From the NCBI GenBank assembly GCA_028715705.1, contig JAQURJ010000011.1:1-38351 (forward strand): a stretch of 38,351 nt of DNA, written 5' to 3'. Each line of letters opens with the position of its first letter. Position 1 is the first letter of the stretch. Below the pieces are notes generated by a model, which had not been told where the DNA came from, ran no database searches, and saw nothing but the letters and a program-made list of their open reading frames with translations. The position numbers and the translations under genes are program-made. Source of the DNA: Phycisphaerae bacterium. Lineage in GTDB: Bacteria > Planctomycetota > Phycisphaerae > Sedimentisphaerales > Anaerobacaceae. Shown piece after piece: positions 8,714 to 20,479 of the stretch.

Positions 8714-9751
8714 ATGGCTGAAATGGTTCAAAAGCAGGTTATTGATTTTGCGGTTTATCCGCCGGTTGGCGGTGAAGACTGGCGTTATGCATTTGCTACG
8801 GCCAAAGTGCGTGCGCTGGAAACGGTTCTTTTAAGCAAGCCGGTCCTTCACGATATGATAAACGCAGCCAACTTTGACCAAACGGTGGATGTGCTAAGTT
8901 CGACCGAATATGCACTTGGGCAGGGTTCGAGGACGATCGGCGATATTGAAAAGATGCTGCTTGAAAAACGGACAGCGGTAAGAAAAATGTTCTGTGATCT
9001 TATGGAAGATAGTGGAATTGTAACGCTGCTCAAAAGCCGTGTCGATTTTTCGAATCTGCGGCTGGCGGTGCGGCGTGAAGTGACTGATAAACCTATCGGA
9101 CTGGATTACAGCGATGATGGCAATGTCCCTGCTGACGAGTTCGAGCAGGTTTTCGAGAGCGAAAGCTACTTTAAGCTGCCGGAACATATGCAGGAAGCTA
9201 TCGAGCAGGCGGTTCTGGCTTATTATCAGGATAAGGATATTCGGCGGATCGATTATGCGATAGATAACGTGCAGGCTCTTTACGCGGTGCGTGAAGCCGA
9301 AAAGCTCAATAATGAGTTTATGGCAGGCCTGTCGAAAATGCAGACCGACTTAACTAACATTCGGACAATGCTGCGATTAAAGTTCGCCGAAATGGACATA
9401 AGGGATGTTTTCCTCGAAGGCGGATATATCGAAATAGAAAGGTTCAAAGCCGGGATTGAGGCTGGTTTTGACACTATACCGCAAATTTTCTTTGCAACAC
9501 CGTATCATCATATAGTTGATAGCGGAACGCACTATCTGGCTGGGGAAAAGTCGTTTTTGCGGCTGGAACAATTGTGCGATGAATTCATTGACGGGTATCT
9601 GAAAAGCACAAATACAATCGCGGCTGGGCCTCAGCCGGTAATTGCGTACTTACTGATAAAGGAAAAAGAAATTCGCGATGTGCGGCTGGTGCTGACAGCC
9701 AAGAAAAATCAGCTGGATAACAGGGTTGTGCTTGACCGAATTGGAAAATAA
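8714..9751 (+). CDS. ntpC: V-type ATPase subunit C (ac39/d-type rotor socket)
   Basis: This 345-residue, mainly helical protein sits on the c ring and holds the central shaft. It has the family's usual length and features: YAFATAKVRALETVLLS near the N-terminus, VDFSNLRLAVR, NNEFMAGLSKMQTDLTNIRTMLRLK in the centre, and the closing AYLLIKEKEIRDVRLVLTAKKN. That last segment is the most conserved part of the ac39 family and holds the Lys/Glu/Ile/Arg pattern. No clear Shine-Dalgarno precedes the ATG, and the gap upstream carries a dispersed repeat. The gene ends 2 nt before subunit F. Confidence 0.92.
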   Translation: MAEMVQKQVIDFAVYPPVGGEDWRYAFATAKVRALETVLLSKPVLHDMINAANFDQTVDVLSSTEYALGQGSRTIGDIEKMLLEKRTAVRKMFCDLMEDSGIVTLLKSRVDFSNLRLAVRREVTDKPIGLDYSDDGNVPADEFEQVFESESYFKLPEHMQEAIEQAVLAYYQDKDIRRIDYAIDNVQALYAVREAEKLNNEFMAGLSKMQTDLTNIRTMLRLKFAEMDIRDVFLEGGYIEIERFKAGIEAGFDTIPQIFFATPYHHIVDSGTHYLAGEKSFLRLEQLCDEFIDGYLKSTNTIAAGPQPVIAYLLIKEKEIRDVRLVLTAKKNQLDNRVVLDRIGK

Positions 9752-9753
9752 AG

Positions 9754-10077
9754 ATGGCAGAAACAGAAAAAAAAGCGGCAGCTCTTGGCGGTGAAGATTT
9801 TATTCTTCCGTTCTCGGCTCTTGGGCTGGATACGTTCCAGACCGATTCGAAAGAGCAGACGCAGGCAGCGGCAAAAAAAATCATAAATGCCGGTTATGCA
9901 CTGATAGTTGTTGCCGAAAACATTGCTGCAGATGCCGAGCTGGTTTTTGGTGAGTATCACAATAAGGCCTTGCCGTCGATAACCATCGTGCCGTTCACCA
10001 CCGAATCAACTGGTATGGCAGTGGCAGGGCTGGGCGAAGCAATAAGGCTCGCGACAGGGATAAACATTCTCAAATAG
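9754..10077 (+). CDS. ntpG: V-type ATPase subunit F (NtpG)
   Basis: This 107-residue protein has the alternating strand/helix pattern of V-ATPase subunit F, the small central-stalk protein that binds subunit D and tunes activity. Typical elements are the early FILPFSALGLDTFQ, the central GYALIVVAENIA and the loop PSITIVPFTTESTG, followed by a helix rich in small residues. The N-terminal 10 residues are Lys/Ala/Glu rich. It follows subunit C by 2 nt and precedes subunit A by 11 nt, the position of ntpG in the Enterococcus operon. Identification relies on length, fold pattern and position together. Confidence 0.88.
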   Translation: MAETEKKAAALGGEDFILPFSALGLDTFQTDSKEQTQAAAKKIINAGYALIVVAENIAADAELVFGEYHNKALPSITIVPFTTESTGMAVAGLGEAIRLATGINILK

Positions 10078-10088
10078 CAGAGGATAAG

Positions 10089-11867
10089 ATGACAGAAAAA
10101 AGAAAAGGTAGAATAATTAAGGTTGCCGGGCCGGTGGTCGTGGCAGAAGGCATGACCGGGGCAAGGATGTATGATGTGGTTCGTGTGGGTTCGCTCAACC
10201 TGATAGGCGAGATCGTTGAACTTCACAGTGATACGGCTTCGATACAGGTTTACGAGGAAACCGGCGGAATAGGCCCTGGCGAAGTTGTAGTCGATACCGA
10301 AGCTCCTCTTTCGGTGGAACTTGGGCCCGGACTGATAGAAAGTATTTACGACGGGATACAAAGGCCGCTTGACACCCTTTACGCAAAGGAAGGGGCGTTT
10401 ATGGGTCGAGGCTCCGATGTGCCCGGTCTTAACCGCGAGAAAAAGTGGGATTTTGAGGCAACCGTAAAGGCTGGAAGCAATGTAGCCCATGGTGACATCG
10501 TAGGCCAGGTTCAGGAAACAACTTTACTTCTCCATAAGATAATGATTCCTCCTGGTGTGAGCGGAATACTGAAAGAAATTAAAAGCGGCCAATACACAGT
10601 GACAGATACTATCGGAATTGTGGAAACCGACGGCGGTGAAAAGCACGAACTGAAACTGATGCAGAAATGGCCTGTTCGTGAACCTCGCCCGGTCAGCAGA
10701 AGACTTGCCCCCAAAGATGTGCTGGTTACAGGCCAGCGTATCATTGATTCGTTCTTCCCGATAAGCAAGGGCGGAACGGCTTGTGTGCCTGGACCTTTCG
10801 GCAGCGGAAAAACCGTTGTACAGCACCAGCTTGCAAAATGGGTCGATGCCGATATCGTGGTTTATGTTGGCTGCGGCGAACGCGGAAACGAGATGACCGA
10901 CGTATTGACCGAATTTCCTGAATTAAAAGATCCTCGCAGCGGCGAGCCTTTGATGAAACGTTCTGTTTTGATAGCCAATACCTCAAATATGCCCGTAGCC
11001 GCTCGTGAGGCATCGGTTTATACCGGTATTACCTTAGCCGAATACTTCCGTGATATGGGCTATACCGTCGCCTTAATGGCTGACAGTACAAGCCGATGGG
11101 CGGAAGCCATGCGTGAAATTTCAACGCGTCTTGAAGAAATGCCAGCCGAAGAAGGATATCCGGCTTATCTCGGTGCAAGGATCGCCAGCTTCTACGAAAG
11201 AAGCGGCAAGGTCGAATGTGCCGGTTCGCCGAAACGTGAGGGTGCGTTATCCGTTATCGGTGCGGTCAGCCCGCCCGGCGGCGACCTGTCCGATCCGGTG
11301 GTGCAGGCGACGCTACACGTGGTGAAGGTGTTCTGGTCATTGCAGGCAAAGCTTGCTTATCAGCGTCACTTCCCGGCTATCGATTGGCTGACCAGCTATT
11401 CGTTCTATAAGGAGTATCTTAAGGATGGTTTCTCCGATAAGGAACTCGGGCTGGAAATGGATAAGCTTACTGTGCAGGCGATGAGCATTCTTGAAGAGGA
11501 ATCCCAGTTAAAGGAAATCGTTCGGCTGGTTGGTGCCGAAGCTTTGAGTCCGAAAGACCGGCTTAGCCTTGAGACGGCAAGGACGCTGAGGGAAGATTAT
11601 CTTCACCAGAATGCATTCCATGCGGTAGATACTTATACCTCGCTGGAAAAGCAGTACCAGATGCTGAAGACGATAATGCATTACTATAATCAGTCACTTG
11701 CGGCTATCACTCGCGGCATCGAGCCGGAAGAACTGTTCAAGCTGGAAGTTCGCGAACAGATAGCAAGAGCCAAATACATTCCGGCTGACCAGATAGAAAA
11801 AATTTCGCAGATACGCGAGATGATAGATTCGCAGATCAAGGATATTGTTCAAAAAGTAGGTGTCTAA
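10089..11867 (+). CDS. ntpA: V-type ATPase catalytic subunit A
   Basis: This 592-residue catalytic subunit hydrolyses or makes ATP in the cytoplasmic head. The Walker A loop GPFGSGKT is at 235-242. The catalytic GERGNEMTDVL segment and the DSTSRWAEAMREIS segment follow, then SFYERSG and GAVSPPGGDLSDPV. The non-homologous insertion (about 115-190) that distinguishes A subunits from F-ATPase beta is present, as shown by GDIVGQVQETTLLLHKI. Length and motifs are normal. GAGGAT precedes the ATG. The stop abuts the ATG of subunit B with no gap. Confidence 0.98.
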   Translation: MTEKRKGRIIKVAGPVVVAEGMTGARMYDVVRVGSLNLIGEIVELHSDTASIQVYEETGGIGPGEVVVDTEAPLSVELGPGLIESIYDGIQRPLDTLYAKEGAFMGRGSDVPGLNREKKWDFEATVKAGSNVAHGDIVGQVQETTLLLHKIMIPPGVSGILKEIKSGQYTVTDTIGIVETDGGEKHELKLMQKWPVREPRPVSRRLAPKDVLVTGQRIIDSFFPISKGGTACVPGPFGSGKTVVQHQLAKWVDADIVVYVGCGERGNEMTDVLTEFPELKDPRSGEPLMKRSVLIANTSNMPVAAREASVYTGITLAEYFRDMGYTVALMADSTSRWAEAMREISTRLEEMPAEEGYPAYLGARIASFYERSGKVECAGSPKREGALSVIGAVSPPGGDLSDPVVQATLHVVKVFWSLQAKLAYQRHFPAIDWLTSYSFYKEYLKDGFSDKELGLEMDKLTVQAMSILEEESQLKEIVRLVGAEALSPKDRLSLETARTLREDYLHQNAFHAVDTYTSLEKQYQMLKTIMHYYNQSLAAITRGIEPEELFKLEVREQIARAKYIPADQIEKISQIREMIDSQIKDIVQKVGV

Positions 11868-13280
11868 ATGATAAAAGAATATCAGACGGTAAGAGATATT
11901 TCCGGGCCGCTTGTGTTGGTCGATCAGGTTGGCGAAGTAAAATACAATGATATTGTCACTGTTGAGCTTGGTGACGGAACGGTGCGTAACGGCCAGATAC
12001 TCCAGGCCGAAAAAGGCAAGGCGCTGATTCAGGTCTTCGAGGGTACGCATGGTATCGATGTTAAGAACAGCACTGTGCGGTTCCTTAATAAGCCGCTGGA
12101 ATTAAATGTCGCCCCAGATTTGCTCGGTCGCGTTTTTACCGGCCTTGGCGTTCCCAAAGACGATGGGCCAAAAATCATACCAGCCGACCGCCGCAATATC
12201 AACGGAAACGCTATTAACCCATTCGGTCGTGACTATCCAAACGAATTTATCCAGACCGGCATCAGCACTATTGACGGACTGAACCCTATTGTCCGCGGTC
12301 AGAAGCTGCCGATATTCTCGGCGTCTGGTTTGCCGCATGACGATATGGCTGCACAGATAGCACGGCAGGCGACTATTCGCGGTGAAGGCGAGCAGTTCGC
12401 TGTAGTGTTCGCGGCTATGGGTATTACGTTTGAGGCGGCACAGTTCTTTATTAATGATCTGACCCAGACCGGCGCTATCGAGCGGTCTGTTATGTTCATT
12501 AATCTTGCGGACGACCCGGCTATCGAACGTATCGCGACACCACGTTTTGCGTTGACTGCTGCTGAATACCTCGCGTTCGACCTCGATATGCACGTTCTGG
12601 TTATCCTCAATGATATGACCAATTACTGCGACGCTCTGCGTGAGATAAGCGCGGCTCGAAAGGAAGTTCCTGGTCGCCGCGGCTATCCGGGTTATCTCTA
12701 TACCGACCTTGCAACTATCTACGAACGAGCTGGACGCATAAAAGAGAAAAAAGGTTCGATTACAATGCTTCCGGTTCTTACAATGCCGGAAGATGATAAA
12801 ACGCATCCTGTTCCGGACCTTACCGGATACATTACAGAAGGGCAGATCATACTGTCTCGGTCTTTGCAGAGAAAGGGGATTACCCCGCCGGTCGATGCGC
12901 TGCCGAGTCTTAGCCGCCTGAAGGACAAAGGTATCGGAGAAGGCAAGACCCGTGAAGATCATGCGGACCTCTATAATCAGCTTTACGCGGCGTATTCTCG
13001 TGGAAAGGATGTACAAGAGCTTGCCACGATCATGGGCGAAGCGGCTCTTTCCGATGAGGATAGAAAATATATGGAATTTGCCAACCAGTTCGAGGCTCGC
13101 TACGTTTCGCAGGGCTATTATGAGAATCGTACAATTGAGCAGACGCTTGACCTTGGCTGGGAGCTTTTGAGTATGTTCACCAATGCTGAACTGAAACGTA
13201 TCGACGAAAAGCTCATCGCCAAGTATATGCCGCGATTTAGAAAAGAAAAAACCGAAGAACCAGCGGAGGCCGCAAAGTAG
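11868..13280 (+). CDS. ntpB: V-type ATPase regulatory subunit B
   Basis: This is the 470-residue non-catalytic head subunit. In place of a Walker A motif it has [18 protein letters not shown], the hallmark of V-type B subunits. Other family segments are [58 protein letters not shown] and [15 protein letters not shown]. It starts on the base after the subunit A stop and ends on the base before the subunit D start, so A, B and D are probably translated in a coupled way. Confidence 0.98.
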
Positions 13281-13895
13281 ATGCTGAATGTCAACCCGAC
13301 ACGGATGGAACTGCTCAACCTTCGCAAGCGTATTGGTCTTGCGCGGCGAGGGCATCGGCTGCTGAGTGAAAAACGCGACGAGATAAGCCGTAATCTTATC
13401 CAGATAGCCAACGAGATACGCCCGTTGCGAAAGCAGGTCGAGACGCAGCTTCAGCAGACTTTCAGAGAGTTTATGCTTGCCCGCGCGACTATGGAGCCGG
13501 AAGATACAAAGGCAGCTTTGGAAATACCGACTAAGAAATTCAGCCTCGCTGTGACAATAGCCAGTATTATGAACGTCAAAGTTCCCCGTTTTTCCAAACA
13601 GATAGAGGGTGACATCGTTTGCTACGGCTATGGTTCGACATCGGGCGAGCTTGACGCGTCACTGTTGGCGCTGGAGCGGGTCTTTGACAAGTTGATGGAA
13701 CTTTCGGAGAAAGAAAAAAAGGCTCGGCTTCTGGCAAAAGAACTTGCGATGACGCGGCGAAGGGTGAATGTGCTCGAACACGTCGTACTACCCGAAATGG
13801 AAGAAACGATAAAATTCATCATGGACAAACTTTCCGAAGCCGAACGCGACAACATCAGCCGCCTGATGAAAATTGCCGACATTATTCGCAAATAA
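13281..13895 (+). CDS. ntpD: V-type ATPase subunit D (central shaft)
   Basis: This 204-residue shaft subunit is two long helices forming an antiparallel coiled coil. It has the conserved opening NPTRMELLNLRKRIGLARRGHRLL and the closing RRVNVLEHVVLPEMEETIKFI, then a short charged tail. It couples rotation of the c ring to the A3B3 head. It is the last V-ATPase gene. The E. hirae operon continues with ntpJ for K+ transport, but here an RDD membrane protein follows after 55 nt. Confidence 0.96.
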   Translation: MLNVNPTRMELLNLRKRIGLARRGHRLLSEKRDEISRNLIQIANEIRPLRKQVETQLQQTFREFMLARATMEPEDTKAALEIPTKKFSLAVTIASIMNVKVPRFSKQIEGDIVCYGYGSTSGELDASLLALERVFDKLMELSEKEKKARLLAKELAMTRRRVNVLEHVVLPEMEETIKFIMDKLSEAERDNISRLMKIADIIRK

Positions 13896-13950
13896 GTAAA
13901 AATATTATTTTACCATCAGAGAAATCCTTTTCATAAGAAACAGGGTAGTC

Positions 13951-14427
13951 GTGAACGAAGAACAATTAGTTCAATCTGAAGATCCGCAGCCGGAGGGTGA
14001 AACGGTAGAATTTGCCGGTTACGCGGGCTTTTGGAAACGGGTCGCCGCAACGGTTATAGACTCTTTTATACTGGCGCCTGCGGCGATGGCTTTGCTGTAT
14101 GCTTTCGATATCCCGCTTAAGACCGCCAATTTTCTGGATATTCCGCTTAAGGTGCAGATTGCCGCATTTTTTGTCGAAACGATATATAACGCCTTGCTTG
14201 AATTTTCACCGCTGCAGGGTTCTATCGGCAAAATTGTTTTGCGCATAAAAGTTACCGATATTTATGGCGACAGGATTGGTCTTGAAAGGGCGTTTATCCG
14301 CAATCTTTCAAAGATTGTTTCGCGGATTATTTTTTTTGTTGGTTATCTTATGATAGCTTTTACCCCGCGAAAGCAGGGACTGCACGATATGATTGCCAAT
14401 TGTGCGGTAATTAACAAATCATTCTAA
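13951..14427 (+). CDS. RDD family membrane protein
   Basis: This is a 158-residue protein with a GTG start and a weak purine-rich AACAGGG upstream. An acidic N-terminal tail (1-23) precedes GYAGFWKRVAATVIDSFIL, the RDD signature with Arg and Asp in the first membrane helix. A second helix lies at about 66-90 and a third near 120-140, before PRKQGLHDMIAN, which carries the last conserved Asp. Some RDD proteins have been reported as Na+(Li+)/H+ antiporters, but most are unassigned. Its place at the end of a V-ATPase operon that looks sodium-linked makes an ion-related role possible, not shown. The transcript appears to end at the hairpin 38 nt downstream. Confidence 0.85.
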   Translation: MNEEQLVQSEDPQPEGETVEFAGYAGFWKRVAATVIDSFILAPAAMALLYAFDIPLKTANFLDIPLKVQIAAFFVETIYNALLEFSPLQGSIGKIVLRIKVTDIYGDRIGLERAFIRNLSKIVSRIIFFVGYLMIAFTPRKQGLHDMIANCAVINKSF

Positions 14428-14490: not shown

Positions 14491-14549
14491 AAGATAGATT
14501 TGTTAATTAATGACGGTCAAAAGACTCATTATTGCTATCGAGGTGGCTT

Positions 14550-15308
14550 ATGGAACTCTCTGTTAAACAAAATGTTATGACCTGTATAACAGGTCTTTGG
14601 TGTGTGGTTCTGGTTCTGCTGGTATTGGGGGGGTATGGCGTCTATGCGGAGGGAAAATGTCCGAAGGACGCAAACGAACAGCCTGGGTGCAAATCGAATT
14701 GCACTGTGTTGGATGTGAACGACTCAAACGAACTGTGGTGGAGCAGGTGGGACGCTTTTGTTAAGGACACGAACGACCCAAACGAGCTGTTGGCAGCCAA
14801 GTGGAATGCCGTTATAACAGTCCTTCAGAGCAAAGAGCTGGATCAGGAACTTAAAAAGAAGATAATCGACAAAATTATGAGCCCGATTTTTGAAACCGAG
14901 CTGATGGCAAAGTTGGCATTGGGCAGAACACACTGGCCGAAATTGACGGATTCTCAACACAAGAGATTTACGGATCTGTTCACCGAACGGCTCAAGATCT
15001 CTTATCTGGAGAAAATCACGCTCTACAAGAATGAAAAAGTCTTATTTAAACCTGCAATACAAAAGAAAGACACCATCAAAATATCTATGGTGCTGATATC
15101 CGACGACAAAGAGGTAGCAATACTATACAAGCTTCGCAAGATGGATGACGCCGGCAGGAGCAAGATGAACGAACGCTGGAAAATTTATGATGTGGAAGTA
15201 CAGGGTGTCAGCATCCTCCTGACATACCGGTCACAATTCGATGATATTCTTCGCCGGGGCAGCGTGAATGATCTTTTTTCTCAGTTAGAGAAGACAACTG
15301 TTCAATGA
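14550..15308 (+). CDS. MlaC/Ttg2-like periplasmic lipid-binding protein
   Basis: This 252-residue exported protein resembles the MlaC/Ttg2D/HpnM family, which carries lipids across the periplasm. Residues 1-33 are a signal peptide ending VYA. The conserved core runs through IMSPIFETELMAKLALGRTHWPKLTDSQHKRFTDLFTERL and the final WKIYDVEVQGVSILLTYRSQFDDILRRG. GAGGTGG before the ATG at 14550 supports this start over an in-frame one at 14532. Between signal peptide and core is a Cys/Asn-rich insertion with an imperfect internal duplication (NDSNELWWSRWDAF, then NDPNELLAAKWNAV). The stop overlaps the start of the RND gene (ATGA), so the two are translationally coupled. Family membership is good; the ligand is unknown. 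Confidence 0.82.
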   Translation: MELSVKQNVMTCITGLWCVVLVLLVLGGYGVYAEGKCPKDANEQPGCKSNCTVLDVNDSNELWWSRWDAFVKDTNDPNELLAAKWNAVITVLQSKELDQELKKKIIDKIMSPIFETELMAKLALGRTHWPKLTDSQHKRFTDLFTERLKISYLEKITLYKNEKVLFKPAIQKKDTIKISMVLISDDKEVAILYKLRKMDDAGRSKMNERWKIYDVEVQGVSILLTYRSQFDDILRRGSVNDLFSQLEKTTVQ

Positions 15309-17842
15309 TGCAAAATTTACTCAAGCGTACCGGTATTATGACTAAATATCGCCCATTAACACAGTTTTTTTTTGATAGGGCGGTTCTGAAGCATCCTGTG
15401 ATAGTCATTGTCTGCATACTGGCAGCGGTTGTTTTTTTGGGGGTTGAGGCTACACACTTCAGGCTGGACGCTTCTGCGGACACACTACTTCTCGAGAACG
15501 ACAAAGATCTGCGTTATTCGCGTTTAATGGCCTCGCGTTACGGAGAACACGATTTTCTTGTGCTGACGTTTACTCCAAAAGGCGAACTGTTCTCGAAGCA
15601 GACACTGGCTACGTTAGGACGATTGCAAGACGACCTGAAGTCCGAGAAAAGTGTCTTATCTGTGGTTTCAATACTGAATGTCCCTCTTTTTGAAAGCCCG
15701 CCTGTAACTCTGAAAGAGTTTACGGGAGAACTGCCAACCCTTTCATCAGGGCGGGCTGACAGAGATATGGCGAGAGTAGAATTTCGTAACAACCCTATTT
15801 ATCAAAAGCTTCTGGTCAGCCCGGATTTAAAGACGACAGCCTTACTGGTCAATTTCGCTGACGATGAAGTTTATCGCGAATTGATAACGCGTCGTGACAT
15901 GTTATTAGAGAAGAAAACCTCTGGTTCGTTAAACTCTGCAGAGCATACCGACCTGAAAGCCGTTGTTGAACAGTTGCAGGAACACAACGACAAAATGAAA
16001 AGTCGTCGTCATCAGGATATCGTTGCAATACGGCAGATTATGGACAAGTATCGCCAGGATGCGGATTTGTTTCTTGGCGGGGTCAGCATGATCGCAGATG
16101 ATATGATCACTTATATTAAGAACGACTTGAAGGTCTTCGGTGTCGGCGTTCTGATATTTCTGATTCTTACGCTTGGTATCATTTTCAGAAGAAAACGATG
16201 GGTATTGCTTCCGACGCTTTGCTGCGGGATATCGGTAATATATATGTTTGGTCTGTTGGGATTGTTTGATTGGAAGGTAACGGTGGTTTCCTCAAATTTT
16301 ATTTCATTGCAGTTGATAATAACTATGGCCCTGACGATTCACCTGATTGTGCGATATCGCGAACTGCTTTCGCAGAATCCGCAGACCCCTAATCGGCAGT
16401 TGATTTTCGATACAATCCGGCTGACGCTTAAGCCTTGTTGGTATACGGTAATAACCACAATTGCTGGTTTCGGGTCTCTGGTTTTTTGCGAAATGCTGCC
16501 GGTCATTATGTTCGGGTGGATGATGATGCTGGGTCTGATTGTCTCTTTTCTTGTGACCTTTTTGCTTTTTCCGGCGGTTCTCGTACTGATGCCAAAAGAA
16601 ACTCCTCGAGACAGACGAGAATCTGATTTTTCCATAACCCCCATCCTTGCGAGATTTACGGAATCGCATGCTGTGCTTATCCTTAGTTTGAGCGGACTTG
16701 TGTTCATTCTTAGCCTCGTTGGAATGTCGAGGCTGAAAGTGGAAAACTCTTTTATCAATTACTTCAAAAAAACCACTGAAATTCACCGAGGTATGAAAGT
16801 AATTGATCAATTTCTTGGCGGTACGACTCCTCTGGATGTAATTGTGGATTTTAGTGAGCCAAATACACAGCCAGCCGTTGTCGAGCCTGCCGCAAGGGTG
16901 AGTGACAGTGTGTTTGACGAATTTGATGAATTCGACAAAGAAGCCGGGGACGAGAAATACTGGTTTACCGCGGACAAGATGAGCCAAATCAAATCTGTTC
17001 ACGAGTATCTTGACAATCTGCCTGAAACGGGCAAAGTGCTTTCGTTAGCCGCCATGTTGAGTGTTGCGGAGAAACTGAACAGCGGAAAGCCTCTGGATAG
17101 TTTTGAGCTGGCTCTGCTTTATAGTGAAACACCGGACAAATTTCGGAATATGCTGGTCAAGCCGTATGTTTCCGTGAATGATAATGAAGCCCGTTTTTGG
17201 GTTCGTGTAAAAGATTCGCAAAAGTCTCTGCGCCGCAATGAGCTACTGGGGAAAATCAAGAGAGACATGACCGGCAAACTTGGATTTGGCGAAAAACAGG
17301 TTCATCTTGCCGGGATGTTGGTTCTGTACAATAATATGCTGCAAAGCCTGTTCAGCTCCCAGATAGTAACGTTGGGGATTACAGTCCTAATGCTTACAGG
17401 GATGTTTCTGATACTGTTTAAATCATTGAAAATAGCCCTCATTGCCATGATTCCGAACATGCTTCCCGTTTCGGTCGTGCTGGGTGTGATGGGGTGGCTG
17501 AACATTCCTCTCGATATGATGACGATAACAATTGCAGCCATCAGTATGGGGATTGCCGTTGATGACACGATTCACTATATATACAGATTTAAACATGAAT
17601 TTAAGAAAGACCATAAGTATCTGCCGACCATGCATCGATGTCATAGAAGCATTGGCCGTGCTATGTACTATACATCGATAACGATTATCATAGGTTTCTC
17701 GATTCTGACTCTGTCGAATTTTATTCCGACTGTTTATTTCGGTTTGCTAACCGGCCTGGTGATGTTCATTGCGATCCTTTCCGCTCTTACCCTCTTGCCG
17801 CAACTACTGATGTTGGTGAAACCTTTTGGCAAGGAGTCTTAA
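15305..17842 (+). CDS. RND/MMPL family exporter (HpnN-like)
   Basis: This 845-residue inner-membrane protein has the RND layout: one membrane helix near 25-45 (HPVIVIVCILAAVVFLG), a periplasmic domain to about 270, five helices, a linker, then a second copy of the same plan. The second periplasmic domain spans roughly 480-680, and LMLTGMFLILFKSL begins the last helix bundle. DMMTITIAAISMGIAVDDTIHYIYRFKHE is the typical RND helix with its charged Asp pair. It belongs with the MMPL/HpnN group, which moves lipids such as hopanoids or mycolates, rather than with multidrug AcrB (no outer-membrane channel or adaptor gene is nearby). It overlaps the MlaC-like gene and is followed by mlaA, so lipid traffic is the best guess. 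Confidence 0.9.
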   Translation: MMQNLLKRTGIMTKYRPLTQFFFDRAVLKHPVIVIVCILAAVVFLGVEATHFRLDASADTLLLENDKDLRYSRLMASRYGEHDFLVLTFTPKGELFSKQTLATLGRLQDDLKSEKSVLSVVSILNVPLFESPPVTLKEFTGELPTLSSGRADRDMARVEFRNNPIYQKLLVSPDLKTTALLVNFADDEVYRELITRRDMLLEKKTSGSLNSAEHTDLKAVVEQLQEHNDKMKSRRHQDIVAIRQIMDKYRQDADLFLGGVSMIADDMITYIKNDLKVFGVGVLIFLILTLGIIFRRKRWVLLPTLCCGISVIYMFGLLGLFDWKVTVVSSNFISLQLIITMALTIHLIVRYRELLSQNPQTPNRQLIFDTIRLTLKPCWYTVITTIAGFGSLVFCEMLPVIMFGWMMMLGLIVSFLVTFLLFPAVLVLMPKETPRDRRESDFSITPILARFTESHAVLILSLSGLVFILSLVGMSRLKVENSFINYFKKTTEIHRGMKVIDQFLGGTTPLDVIVDFSEPNTQPAVVEPAARVSDSVFDEFDEFDKEAGDEKYWFTADKMSQIKSVHEYLDNLPETGKVLSLAAMLSVAEKLNSGKPLDSFELALLYSETPDKFRNMLVKPYVSVNDNEARFWVRVKDSQKSLRRNELLGKIKRDMTGKLGFGEKQVHLAGMLVLYNNMLQSLFSSQIVTLGITVLMLTGMFLILFKSLKIALIAMIPNMLPVSVVLGVMGWLNIPLDMMTITIAAISMGIAVDDTIHYIYRFKHEFKKDHKYLPTMHRCHRSIGRAMYYTSITIIIGFSILTLSNFIPTVYFGLLTGLVMFIAILSALTLLPQLLMLVKPFGKES

Positions 17843-17909
17843 GAATTTGAAACGGGTATGATCAGATGGTATTATTAGAAATTAGACAAAGTTATCAGGA
17901 AGGAATGAT

Positions 17910-18686
17910 ATGAAACCACAGGTTTTTGCCATTGTTATTTTAGCGTTAATGACAGGCGGCTGCGCAGTTTCTGAGAAGAAGGCAGCGTCTATGTTTGATT
18001 CGTCCGATTCAAACCAGCCCGGCGTGTCACAATCTGACGATGAATTTGGTTTGTTTGAAGATGAGCTTGCCGGACAGGTTGTTAAGGTGGCCGATCCGCT
18101 GGAATCCTTGAACCGGATAATGCATGGTATTAATGACATACTGTATTTTTGGGTTGTCAAGCCTGTCACGCATGTATATAAAGCTGTCGCGCCAAAGCCG
18201 GTTCGCCTCGGCATCGGTAATTTCTTTGACAATCTGACAACTCCGGCACGTTTTGCTAACTGTCTTCTGCAGGGCAAAAATCAAGCGGCAGGGAAGGAAT
18301 TACATCGTTTCGTTGTTAATACTACGGCAGGGGTGCTTGGCTTCGGAGACCCGGCGCAGGATCGATATGGGTTGAAACCTACCGAGGAAGACTTGGGCCA
18401 AACGCTGGCTGTATATGGCCTTGGCGACGGATTCTATGTAGTGTGGCCGCTGCTTGGCCCATCGACCTTGCGGGATTCTGTGGGCATTGTTGGCGACTAT
18501 TTTTTGAATCCGGTTCGGTACGTCGAACCGCAGGAAGCTTCTATTGGCATATCTGCGGTGAGTGTCACTAATGAGGGCTCGTTTCACATCGGAGAGTATG
18601 AAGCCTTCAAGTTAGCGGCTGTGGATACATATGTGGCGATGCGTAATGCCTATATTCAATATCGAAGCAAACAAATCAAAGAGTAG
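17910..18686 (+). CDS. mlaA: MlaA (VacJ) outer-membrane lipoprotein
   Basis: This 258-residue lipoprotein has a signal sequence ending MTGGC, so Cys18 would be lipidated, and the next residue is Ala, which fits outer-membrane sorting. An acidic linker (about 22-65) precedes the MlaA domain: DPLESLNRIMHGIND, PVRLGIGNFFDNLTTPARFANCLLQGK, RFVVNTTAGVLGFGDPA, EEDLGQTLAVYGLGDG and WPLLGPSTLRDSVG, all in family order. MlaA removes misplaced phospholipid from the outer leaflet and passes it to MlaC. AGGAAGGA lies upstream of the start. The MlaFEDB ABC transporter is absent here; an RND exporter gene sits 67 nt upstream instead. Confidence 0.95.
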   Translation: MKPQVFAIVILALMTGGCAVSEKKAASMFDSSDSNQPGVSQSDDEFGLFEDELAGQVVKVADPLESLNRIMHGINDILYFWVVKPVTHVYKAVAPKPVRLGIGNFFDNLTTPARFANCLLQGKNQAAGKELHRFVVNTTAGVLGFGDPAQDRYGLKPTEEDLGQTLAVYGLGDGFYVVWPLLGPSTLRDSVGIVGDYFLNPVRYVEPQEASIGISAVSVTNEGSFHIGEYEAFKLAAVDTYVAMRNAYIQYRSKQIKE

Positions 18687-19224: not shown

Positions 19225-19758
19225 TTACCTTGAAACAGGTTCTTGTGACAACCAATACGATTTCCATCTTTCAATAAATTGTTTGCCAAATTCATCTTCC
19301 ATCAAAAAAGCAAATTCCGTTTCACCAAAAGGTCCTTTATAGTAAACCACACAAAGTTCACCAAATACTCCGGTTAAGGGGCGATCAATGCACAAAATAG
19401 ATGAAATAGGCAATATACGTTGTGGCGATATGTCATTGGGGTCTTTTTGTAATTTCCATCCGATTGTGAATAATGAACCATTTCGGGATGTGACAAAGCC
19501 CGCCCCGTGATGGGGGCCAGTAAAAATATTAGGATCAATGCCAAAACCTATAATAGCTGCATTCACTTTTTGATATGATGCTTTTAAGACATCAGATGTT
19601 GTACGGCCGGGATCATATTCTTCTAACTCATCAGATGTATCTTTAGTCGCAATAGCAATTGTTTGCTTGTAACTTGTTGCTTTTATAACTTTATAGTTTA
19701 ACCAAAAAAGATTTACAAAAATGGCAAAAAGCAGTAAATATAGAAGCAGTTTTTTCAT
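19225..19758 (-). CDS. Hypothetical membrane-anchored protein
   Basis: This is a 177-residue protein I cannot assign. Residues 1-22 are one hydrophobic segment (LLLYLLLFAIFVNLFW) after two lysines, either an uncleaved anchor or a signal peptide. The rest (about 28-177) is a soluble domain with Gly-rich turns (GFGIDPNIFTGPHHGAGF) and strand-like stretches. This suggests an extracytoplasmic beta-rich domain, perhaps PH-like. AAGGGAA lies upstream of the start. The gene is visibly more AT-rich than its neighbours and pairs with the gene at 19826-20479 on the same strand. Repeats flank the pair, which fits recent gain. Confidence 0.65.
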   Translation of the reverse strand: MKKLLLYLLLFAIFVNLFWLNYKVIKATSYKQTIAIATKDTSDELEEYDPGRTTSDVLKASYQKVNAAIIGFGIDPNIFTGPHHGAGFVTSRNGSLFTIGWKLQKDPNDISPQRILPISSILCIDRPLTGVFGELCVVYYKGPFGETEFAFLMEDEFGKQFIERWKSYWLSQEPVSR

Positions 19759-19825: not shown

Positions 19826-20479
19826 TTATTGGTTTAGATAATTTTGCAGTTTTTTCTTGCTATGCTCATTGGCACCATTAGCCGCAAATATCGCTCGTTC
19901 TTGAATGAATGTATTTTGGTCAATTAGTTCCACTAACCCTTCCATCTTTAAAAGATAAATAGCAATAAACATTTTCCAAAATTTAACAAAGAAAAATAAT
20001 AAACAAACATATGCGATTGCAATCACAAGCAGTATGGAACGGCATATATTTTGTGATATGACCGGACTCGCAAGTTTGTACAGAGGGAATAATGATAACG
20101 GTAGTGCAATTATGATAATCCCGATAAGATGCATACCTGTTTTCACTTCGTTAACAAAATCAGCAAATATAAAATTTTCAACTGGATCAGTTAAATTCAA
20201 TATTTTTAATTTTTTTTCTTGCGTTTCACCTTTGAGCCTGCATTTAATTATTATGGCAGTAACAAACGTTAGCAACAATTGAATTGTAAAGAGAGCCGCA
20301 GTGGATGATAACCAAAAAAGCAAAAAGAAAGGATTTGCAAGAATATCTATACTTGAAAGACTTTCGCCCTTGAAGATAGTTATAAAGTATATATGCCACA
20401 ATAATGCGATGAAAAAACCACCAATAAAACTATAAATTTCATCCCGTTTAAGAGAGCCAATGGGTAAAATCGAGTTCAT
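19826..20479 (-). CDS. Hypothetical four-helix membrane protein
   Basis: This is a 217-residue protein of unknown family. Four hydrophobic helices stand out: about 16-36 (FIGGFFIALLWHIYFITIF), 50-78, 112-132 and 143-165. A cytosolic loop (about 80-110) is Lys/Glu rich, and a charged C-terminal tail ends in KKKLQNYLNQ. GAGGTGA precedes the ATG. It has the same AT-rich base use as the gene that follows it on the minus strand 67 nt away, so the two may form one small transcription unit. No enzyme motif is visible. Confidence 0.65.
   Translation of the reverse strand: MNSILPIGSLKRDEIYSFIGGFFIALLWHIYFITIFKGESLSSIDILANPFFLLFWLSSTAALFTIQLLLTFVTAIIIKCRLKGETQEKKLKILNLTDPVENFIFADFVNEVKTGMHLIGIIIIALPLSLFPLYKLASPVISQNICRSILLVIAIAYVCLLFFFVKFWKMFIAIYLLKMEGLVELIDQNTFIQERAIFAANGANEHSKKKLQNYLNQ

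Follow-up and report, generated by a model that had tools for sequence, protein, structure and literature searches.

A 38,351-nt stretch of DNA from a Phycisphaerae bacterium (the window) carries three adjacent genes that encode an MlaC-like lipid carrier, a protein of the RND superfamily and the outer-membrane lipoprotein MlaA, an arrangement that we found conserved in bacteria of several phyla. We consider it likely that this cassette specifies a dedicated envelope lipid shuttle, in which a specialised MlaC would work at the inner membrane with an RND-fold protein and not with MlaFEDB. Our best reading of the cassette is that of a variant of Mla/HpnMN lipid shuttling built on an RND protein.

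All three genes lie on the plus strand. The mlaC-like gene (14550..15308) encodes a 252-aa exported carrier of the cassette type (PF05494, E 4e-37). Its start is the ATG at 14550, with GAGGTGG just 5′ of it, and the TTG at 14532 given in the ORF list is an extension. Inspection of the sequence predicted a Sec signal peptide at residues 1-33 (14550..14648, plus strand), ending between GVYA and EG; residues 15-27 form a helix in the structural model and Ala33 is conserved in at least 90% of cases. The mlaC stop and the start of the RND gene overlap in an ATGA (15305..15308, plus strand). The RND gene (15305..17842) encodes an 845-aa protein of the MMPL/HAE3 type with 12 predicted transmembrane (TM) helices (PF03176, E 5e-35), and mlaA (17910..18686) encodes a 258-aa outer-membrane lipoprotein (PF04333, E 1.4e-68) with, by inspection, a lipobox-like MTGGC at Cys18. 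The Pfam scores were far above the cut-offs (128 versus 26 bits for MlaC, 121 versus 20.5 for MMPL and 231 versus 25 for MlaA). The original prediction of MlaC, RND and MlaA genes in this order, with the ATGA overlap, was accurate. In addition to the MMPL match, the RND protein shows two halves of 6 TM helices plus a periplasmic domain, as in MMPL/HAE3 members; its best NCBIfam model was HAE3 TIGR00921, at 149 bits and thus below the cut-off of 352. Between the RND gene and mlaA there is a promoter-like site with an extended -10 (TTGAAA-17-TATTAT, 17847..17875, plus strand), a consensus match that is by itself no proof of function. The cassette is preceded by a V-type ATPase operon and then by a gene for an RDD-family membrane protein (13951-14427; the whole block covers 8714-14427), which is separated from mlaC by 122 bases. 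The two minus-strand neighbours at 19225-19758 (177 aa) and 19826-20479 (217 aa) gave no Pfam match.

Within the window's family, the MlaC-RND-MlaA cassette was present in all 12 MlaC-bearing genomes that were seen (the window's own genome included), and it was also found in four genomes of family f4 and two of family f92. MlaC was detected in 27 of 397 genomes of a class sample and in 19 of 199 genomes of a phylum sample, where MlaA was present in 26; most of those in the phylum sample belonged to ABC operons of the E-F-D-C-A kind. When named genomes were scanned with an alignment of RND proteins, more than 550 relatives were obtained, and the neighbours of the best 80 were examined. RND, MlaC and MlaA occurred together in 48 of these 80 and MlaC alone in nine more; the other 23 had no close same-strand MlaC, in some cases due to contig ends. 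Cassettes among the best 80 came from Planctomycetota (Scalindua included), Desulfobacterota, Nitrospirota, Campylobacterota, Lentisphaerota, Kiritimatiellota and Elusimicrobiota, and also from MAGs labelled Myxococcota and from SAR324-type Lambdaproteobacteria, a spread of about eight phyla when phyla are named by record labels, some of which may be wrong for MAGs (the 'Chloroflexi' contig L133 is 3 kb long). Among 150 genomes of the class to which a Campylobacterota genome belongs, 86 matched the RND profile, about 79 of them strongly, and 25 of the top 30 Campylobacteria loci examined carried MlaA-MlaC-RND. Two gene orders were therefore seen, MlaC-RND-MlaA in most Planctomycetota and part of the Desulfobacterota versus MlaA-MlaC-RND elsewhere. 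The adjacency of MlaC and RND was constant in both, with short gaps or overlaps in most loci, commonly of -4 or -1 nt. Given this recurrence in relatives, the three-gene arrangement is not due to chance, and the synteny that the original prediction had proposed as a check is well established. At one locus (L111, G567) the RND frame is in two overlapping pieces of 600 and 271 aa, through either a frameshift or an assembly error.

Phylogenetic analysis separated the carrier of the cassette from its outer-membrane partner. In a tree of 64 hand-chosen MlaC proteins whose root was not fixed, the 35 RND-linked MlaC formed one clade (bootstrap 99, SH-aLRT 99), which was present in 98% of bootstrap trees. 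The clade excluded the HpnM-type proteins and the MlaC that other Planctomycetota encode beside ABC genes, as well as L193 and L204, two MlaC located near RND genes in a non-standard arrangement. The monophyly of RND-linked MlaA, on the other hand, was rejected (AU p 1.1e-5), and the MlaA of the Scalindua cassette was nested among MlaA from ABC operons. Because the RND-linked MlaC are one clade and the MlaA are not, the simplest reading of the sequences is that MlaC tracks, or co-evolves with, the RND protein through a specific interface, and that MlaA would be generic and interchangeable. Two observations on these families may be added. One Planctomycetota genome (G130) has three MlaC genes (contigs C17, C165 and C215; loci L031, L035 and L044), one ABC-linked and two solitary. 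In several Planctomycetota, lipoproteins of about 640-700 aa combine MlaA with an alpha/beta-hydrolase domain at the C-terminus that has a GxSMG-type motif (L066, L064, L067-L070 and L073-L075, in genomes G107, G045, G192, G085, G148, G117, G052, G103 and G150); in the L066 fusion both Pfam matches were above cut-off (MlaA 162 bits, Abhydrolase_1 37.5 bits), and a lipase-coupled MlaA is possible.

Predicted structures agreed with these family assignments. A Foldseek search with the AlphaFold model of MlaC (pLDDT 83.8) gave 11 significant matches, all of the MlaC/Ttg2D type (E to 1.6e-10) and several of them solved with phospholipid, the TM score (target) against the phospholipid-bound structures being 0.74-0.82. 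MlaA matched solved MlaA from porin complexes (E 4e-21). The RND model (pLDDT 83.8, pTM 0.78) comprised the 12 TM helices and two periplasmic domains, and its Foldseek matches were headed by MmpL4/5, followed by HpnN and NPC1-type proteins. By VIA-align, MmpL5 reached Z 45 over 695 residues and was tied with SecDF, AcrB and NCR1; as far as the model goes, the substrate is not readable from the RND fold alone.

We then compared the membrane residues of 34 aligned members of this RND family. In TM4 (residues 332-357, 16298..16375, plus strand; model helix and alignment), all 34 have Ala, Ser or Gly where HpnN-type proteins have an acidic residue, the Asp that is usual in proton-coupled RND proteins; Gln336 is invariant and His346 is present in 33. 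TM10 (model helix 738-769, 17516..17611, plus strand; motif GIAVDDTIHY) carries Asp753 in 33 of 34, the exception being L119 (G466). This protein, which at 78% identity is nearest to the window RND, has Asn at 753 and Tyr in place of His346; the TM10 Asp is also lost in the L227 RND, and coupling loss or decay is possible in both. From the alignment, proton coupling can be inferred through a single candidate relay residue, Asp753, and it is uncertain because the TM4 acidic residue is absent and L119 has Asn753. The second periplasmic domain contains an acidic, Phe-containing flexible loop (residues 520-547, including DEFDEF; 16862..16945, plus strand), predicted to be disordered (pLDDT <50), which is found in nearly all window-type RND proteins and is absent in the two of the HpnN type. 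An electronegative loop of MlaD meets the positive groove of MlaC (PMC11289387), and by analogy a docking role for the DEFDEF loop is an idea that could be entertained. As a motif for MlaC docking the loop was non-discriminating, being present also in RND proteins without a neighbouring MlaC.

Because the original prediction described the cassette as lacking an Mla ABC transporter, the Mla genes of the window genome, a MAG of 2.33 Mb in 186 contigs (95.7% complete, 6.6% contamination), bear directly on its interpretation. The description is right for the locus, as no mlaD, mlaE or mlaF lies within the cassette, and wrong for the genome: there is one MlaE on contig C67 (E 1.6e-77), with MlaF adjoining, and one MlaD on contig C41 (E 2e-12), linked neither to MlaE-MlaF nor to the cassette. 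The three ABC components of canonical Mla are thus present genome-wide but outside the mlaC operon, and an RND protein standing in for an absent ABC system is ruled out in this genome. The single MlaC and the single MlaA of the genome are both those of the cassette; since MlaE, MlaF and MlaD are also present, MlaC and MlaA could serve both systems. A stronger version of this argument, in which the two proteins serve the unlinked MlaE-MlaF-MlaD as in E. coli and the RND protein is a bystander efflux pump, has a parallel in C. jejuni, for which mlaA and mlaC have also been assigned to an mlaEFD encoded far away (PMC6549495). We find it improbable, because the RND-linked MlaC clade stands apart from ABC-linked MlaC, the linkage is kept across phyla and the two systems are separable both ways. 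Of 33 relatives tested at class and phylum level, 32 had MlaE, whether or not they carried the cassette; these include all 11 checked members of the window's family that lack MlaC. Conversely, among 35 genomes from other groups that carry the complete cassette, 16 gave no MlaE match. These 16 are mostly MAGs whose completeness is not stated, but the miss rate among comparable MAGs, the class and phylum relatives, was 1 in 33. That MlaE is undetected in so many cassette genomes makes a self-contained RND-MlaC-MlaA route plausible. The view that an RND protein stands next to MlaC and MlaA where the ABC complex would be is upheld by the linkage across phyla and the dedicated MlaC clade. The original prediction was to be given up if a complete mlaFEDB operon occurred in the genome and the three genes showed no conserved linkage in relatives; this refutation fails, as the linkage is strongly conserved despite the presence of MlaE, MlaF and MlaD.

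Like HpnM-HpnN, the cassette combines a periplasmic protein of the MlaC family with an RND of the HAE3 type, and the original prediction had drawn the analogy with hopanoid export. Taken as an identity, the analogy was not sustained. The window RND scored 108.5 bits for TIGR03480 (cut-off 752) and 83.8 bits for NF052374 (cut-off 1100), both HpnN models, MlaC scored 55.7 bits for the HpnM model TIGR03481 (cut-off 160), the TM4 acidic residue is absent, and no squalene-hopene cyclase candidate (PF13243) was found in the window genome, at 95.7% completeness, or in G142. In contrast, two Planctomycetota loci used as positive controls, L038 (G100) and L109 (G252), exceeded the cut-offs with 983 and 898 bits for TIGR03480 and 193 and 186 bits for TIGR03481. 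In both, MlaA lies beside HpnM/HpnN and the genome has a squalene-hopene cyclase (E 2e-136, on the contig of the cassette, and 3e-128). Two RND types, HpnN-type and window-type, therefore associate with MlaC and MlaA, and a full cyclase match accompanies the HpnN type only; in the G100 and G252 bacteria, MlaA may serve HpnMN as its partner in the outer membrane. The model cut-offs and the absent cyclase rule out HpnMN hopanoid export for the window cassette. Despite the weak HpnN/HpnM similarity and the weaker cyclase-domain matches of some cassette genomes (E 1e-20 to 1e-29), we give hardly any credence to the wider proposal of an exporter of hopanoids or other polycyclic triterpenoids. Multi-part efflux of toxic hydrophobic compounds is very unlikely as well. 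It has been proposed for AmeABCD, in which AmeD, also an HAE3 RND in a conserved set, needs dedicated periplasmic and outer-membrane partners for monoterpene tolerance (PMC6394551). However, AmeA, AmeB and AmeC belong to families unrelated to those of the cassette (DUF1302, DUF1329 and COG4447), the carrier here has the lipid-binding MlaC fold, and the hosts of the cassette are anaerobes and marine lineages with no common xenobiotic context. BstABC, the sterol transport system of Methylococcus (PMC10942540), resembles the cassette in moving lipid with an RND protein, a periplasmic carrier and an outer-membrane-side protein, but BstB (phosphonate-binding type) and BstC (TPR-like) are of unrelated families, and the BstA model was not among the matches of the window RND in the NCBIfam model search.

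For the preferred reading, a lipid shuttle with an RND partner, the cargo is probably phospholipid. LpxC was present in all 31 genomes tested, the window genome among them, and its presence makes an LPS outer membrane with an asymmetry problem likely. We propose that MlaC would dock on the RND protein and ferry one lipid molecule at a time across the periplasm between it and outer-membrane MlaA, which probably acts with a porin. MlaC would collect or deliver phospholipid at MlaA and exchange it with the RND protein, whose action could be proton-coupled via Asp753 of TM10. By analogy we prefer the retrograde direction: the MlaA of E. coli is a channel that extracts lipid from the outer leaflet, and NPC2-NPC1 is a case of handover from a carrier to an RND protein. 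The HpnN and MmpL precedents favour export, so that our preference is slight. Anterograde export by the same parts, possibly with a special lipid as cargo, is accordingly a reading to be kept in mind, though we lean against it: the closest characterised RND relatives, HpnN and the MmpL family, send lipids outward (e.g. HpnN and BstA, PMC10942540) and the RND model is structurally similar to HpnN and MmpL4/5, but the known role of MlaA in extracting outer-leaflet phospholipid argues against it, and in none of the loci examined is the cassette accompanied by a gene for lipid biosynthesis.

Work on the direction and energy source of lipid transit through the periplasm has dealt almost exclusively with Proteobacteria and their ABC-driven Mla, Pqi, Let and AsmA-like routes. 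By Pfam and fold, the MlaC and MlaA of the cassette are true members of the families of Mla (MlaA-MlaC-MlaFEDB), the system of retrograde phospholipid transport. The cassette differs from Mla in that its operon has an RND protein as inner-membrane partner, that its MlaC groups in a clade apart from the ABC-linked sequences, and that the ABC core is unlinked in the window genome and often undetected in cassette genomes. Since the MlaC-RND cassette is conserved and often occurs without detectable MlaE, the presence of MlaC and MlaA in a genome does not imply an ABC-driven pathway. According to passages of a survey that used the same Pfam models, MlaA and MlaC occur mostly in Proteobacteria and are additions to an ancestral MlaDEF core (PMC10665443); RND partners are unmentioned in these passages. 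Our search of the open-access literature, with subscription journals outside its scope, found no paper describing an MlaC-RND-MlaA operon. It is conceivable, at somewhat less than an even chance, that, in addition to Mla-ABC and HpnMN, there is a third and widespread class of envelope lipid transport based on MlaC, represented by the cassette, independent of MCE/ABC proteins and spread over about eight phyla. The RND protein would then replace MlaFEDB as inner-membrane lipid acceptor or donor. The cassette offers a three-gene system in which lipid transfer from carrier to RND protein is directly testable.

This possibility has a bearing on Campylobacter. In C. jejuni, mlaA (Cj1371) and mlaC (Cj1372) are clustered apart from mlaEFD (Cj1646-1648), an organisation interpreted as one pathway, and loss of mlaA raises vesicle production (PMC6549495). 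The gene that follows Cj1372, Cj1373, has been called an integral membrane protein (PMC11955535). The order Cj1371-Cj1372-Cj1373 is that of MlaA-MlaC-RND in the 25 Campylobacteria loci described above. By this order, Cj1373 is a candidate for the RND protein of the cassette. The published view of Cj1371 and Cj1372 is that of MlaABC-type transport with mlaEFD elsewhere, unlike the reading with an RND partner; a third class of transport, if real, would explain Campylobacter 'Mla' phenotypes that are now credited to the MlaEFD encoded elsewhere. In several Campylobacteria, a convergent gene for a BON-domain lipoprotein (L230:920-1495 and similar) lies right after the RND gene, outside the operon.
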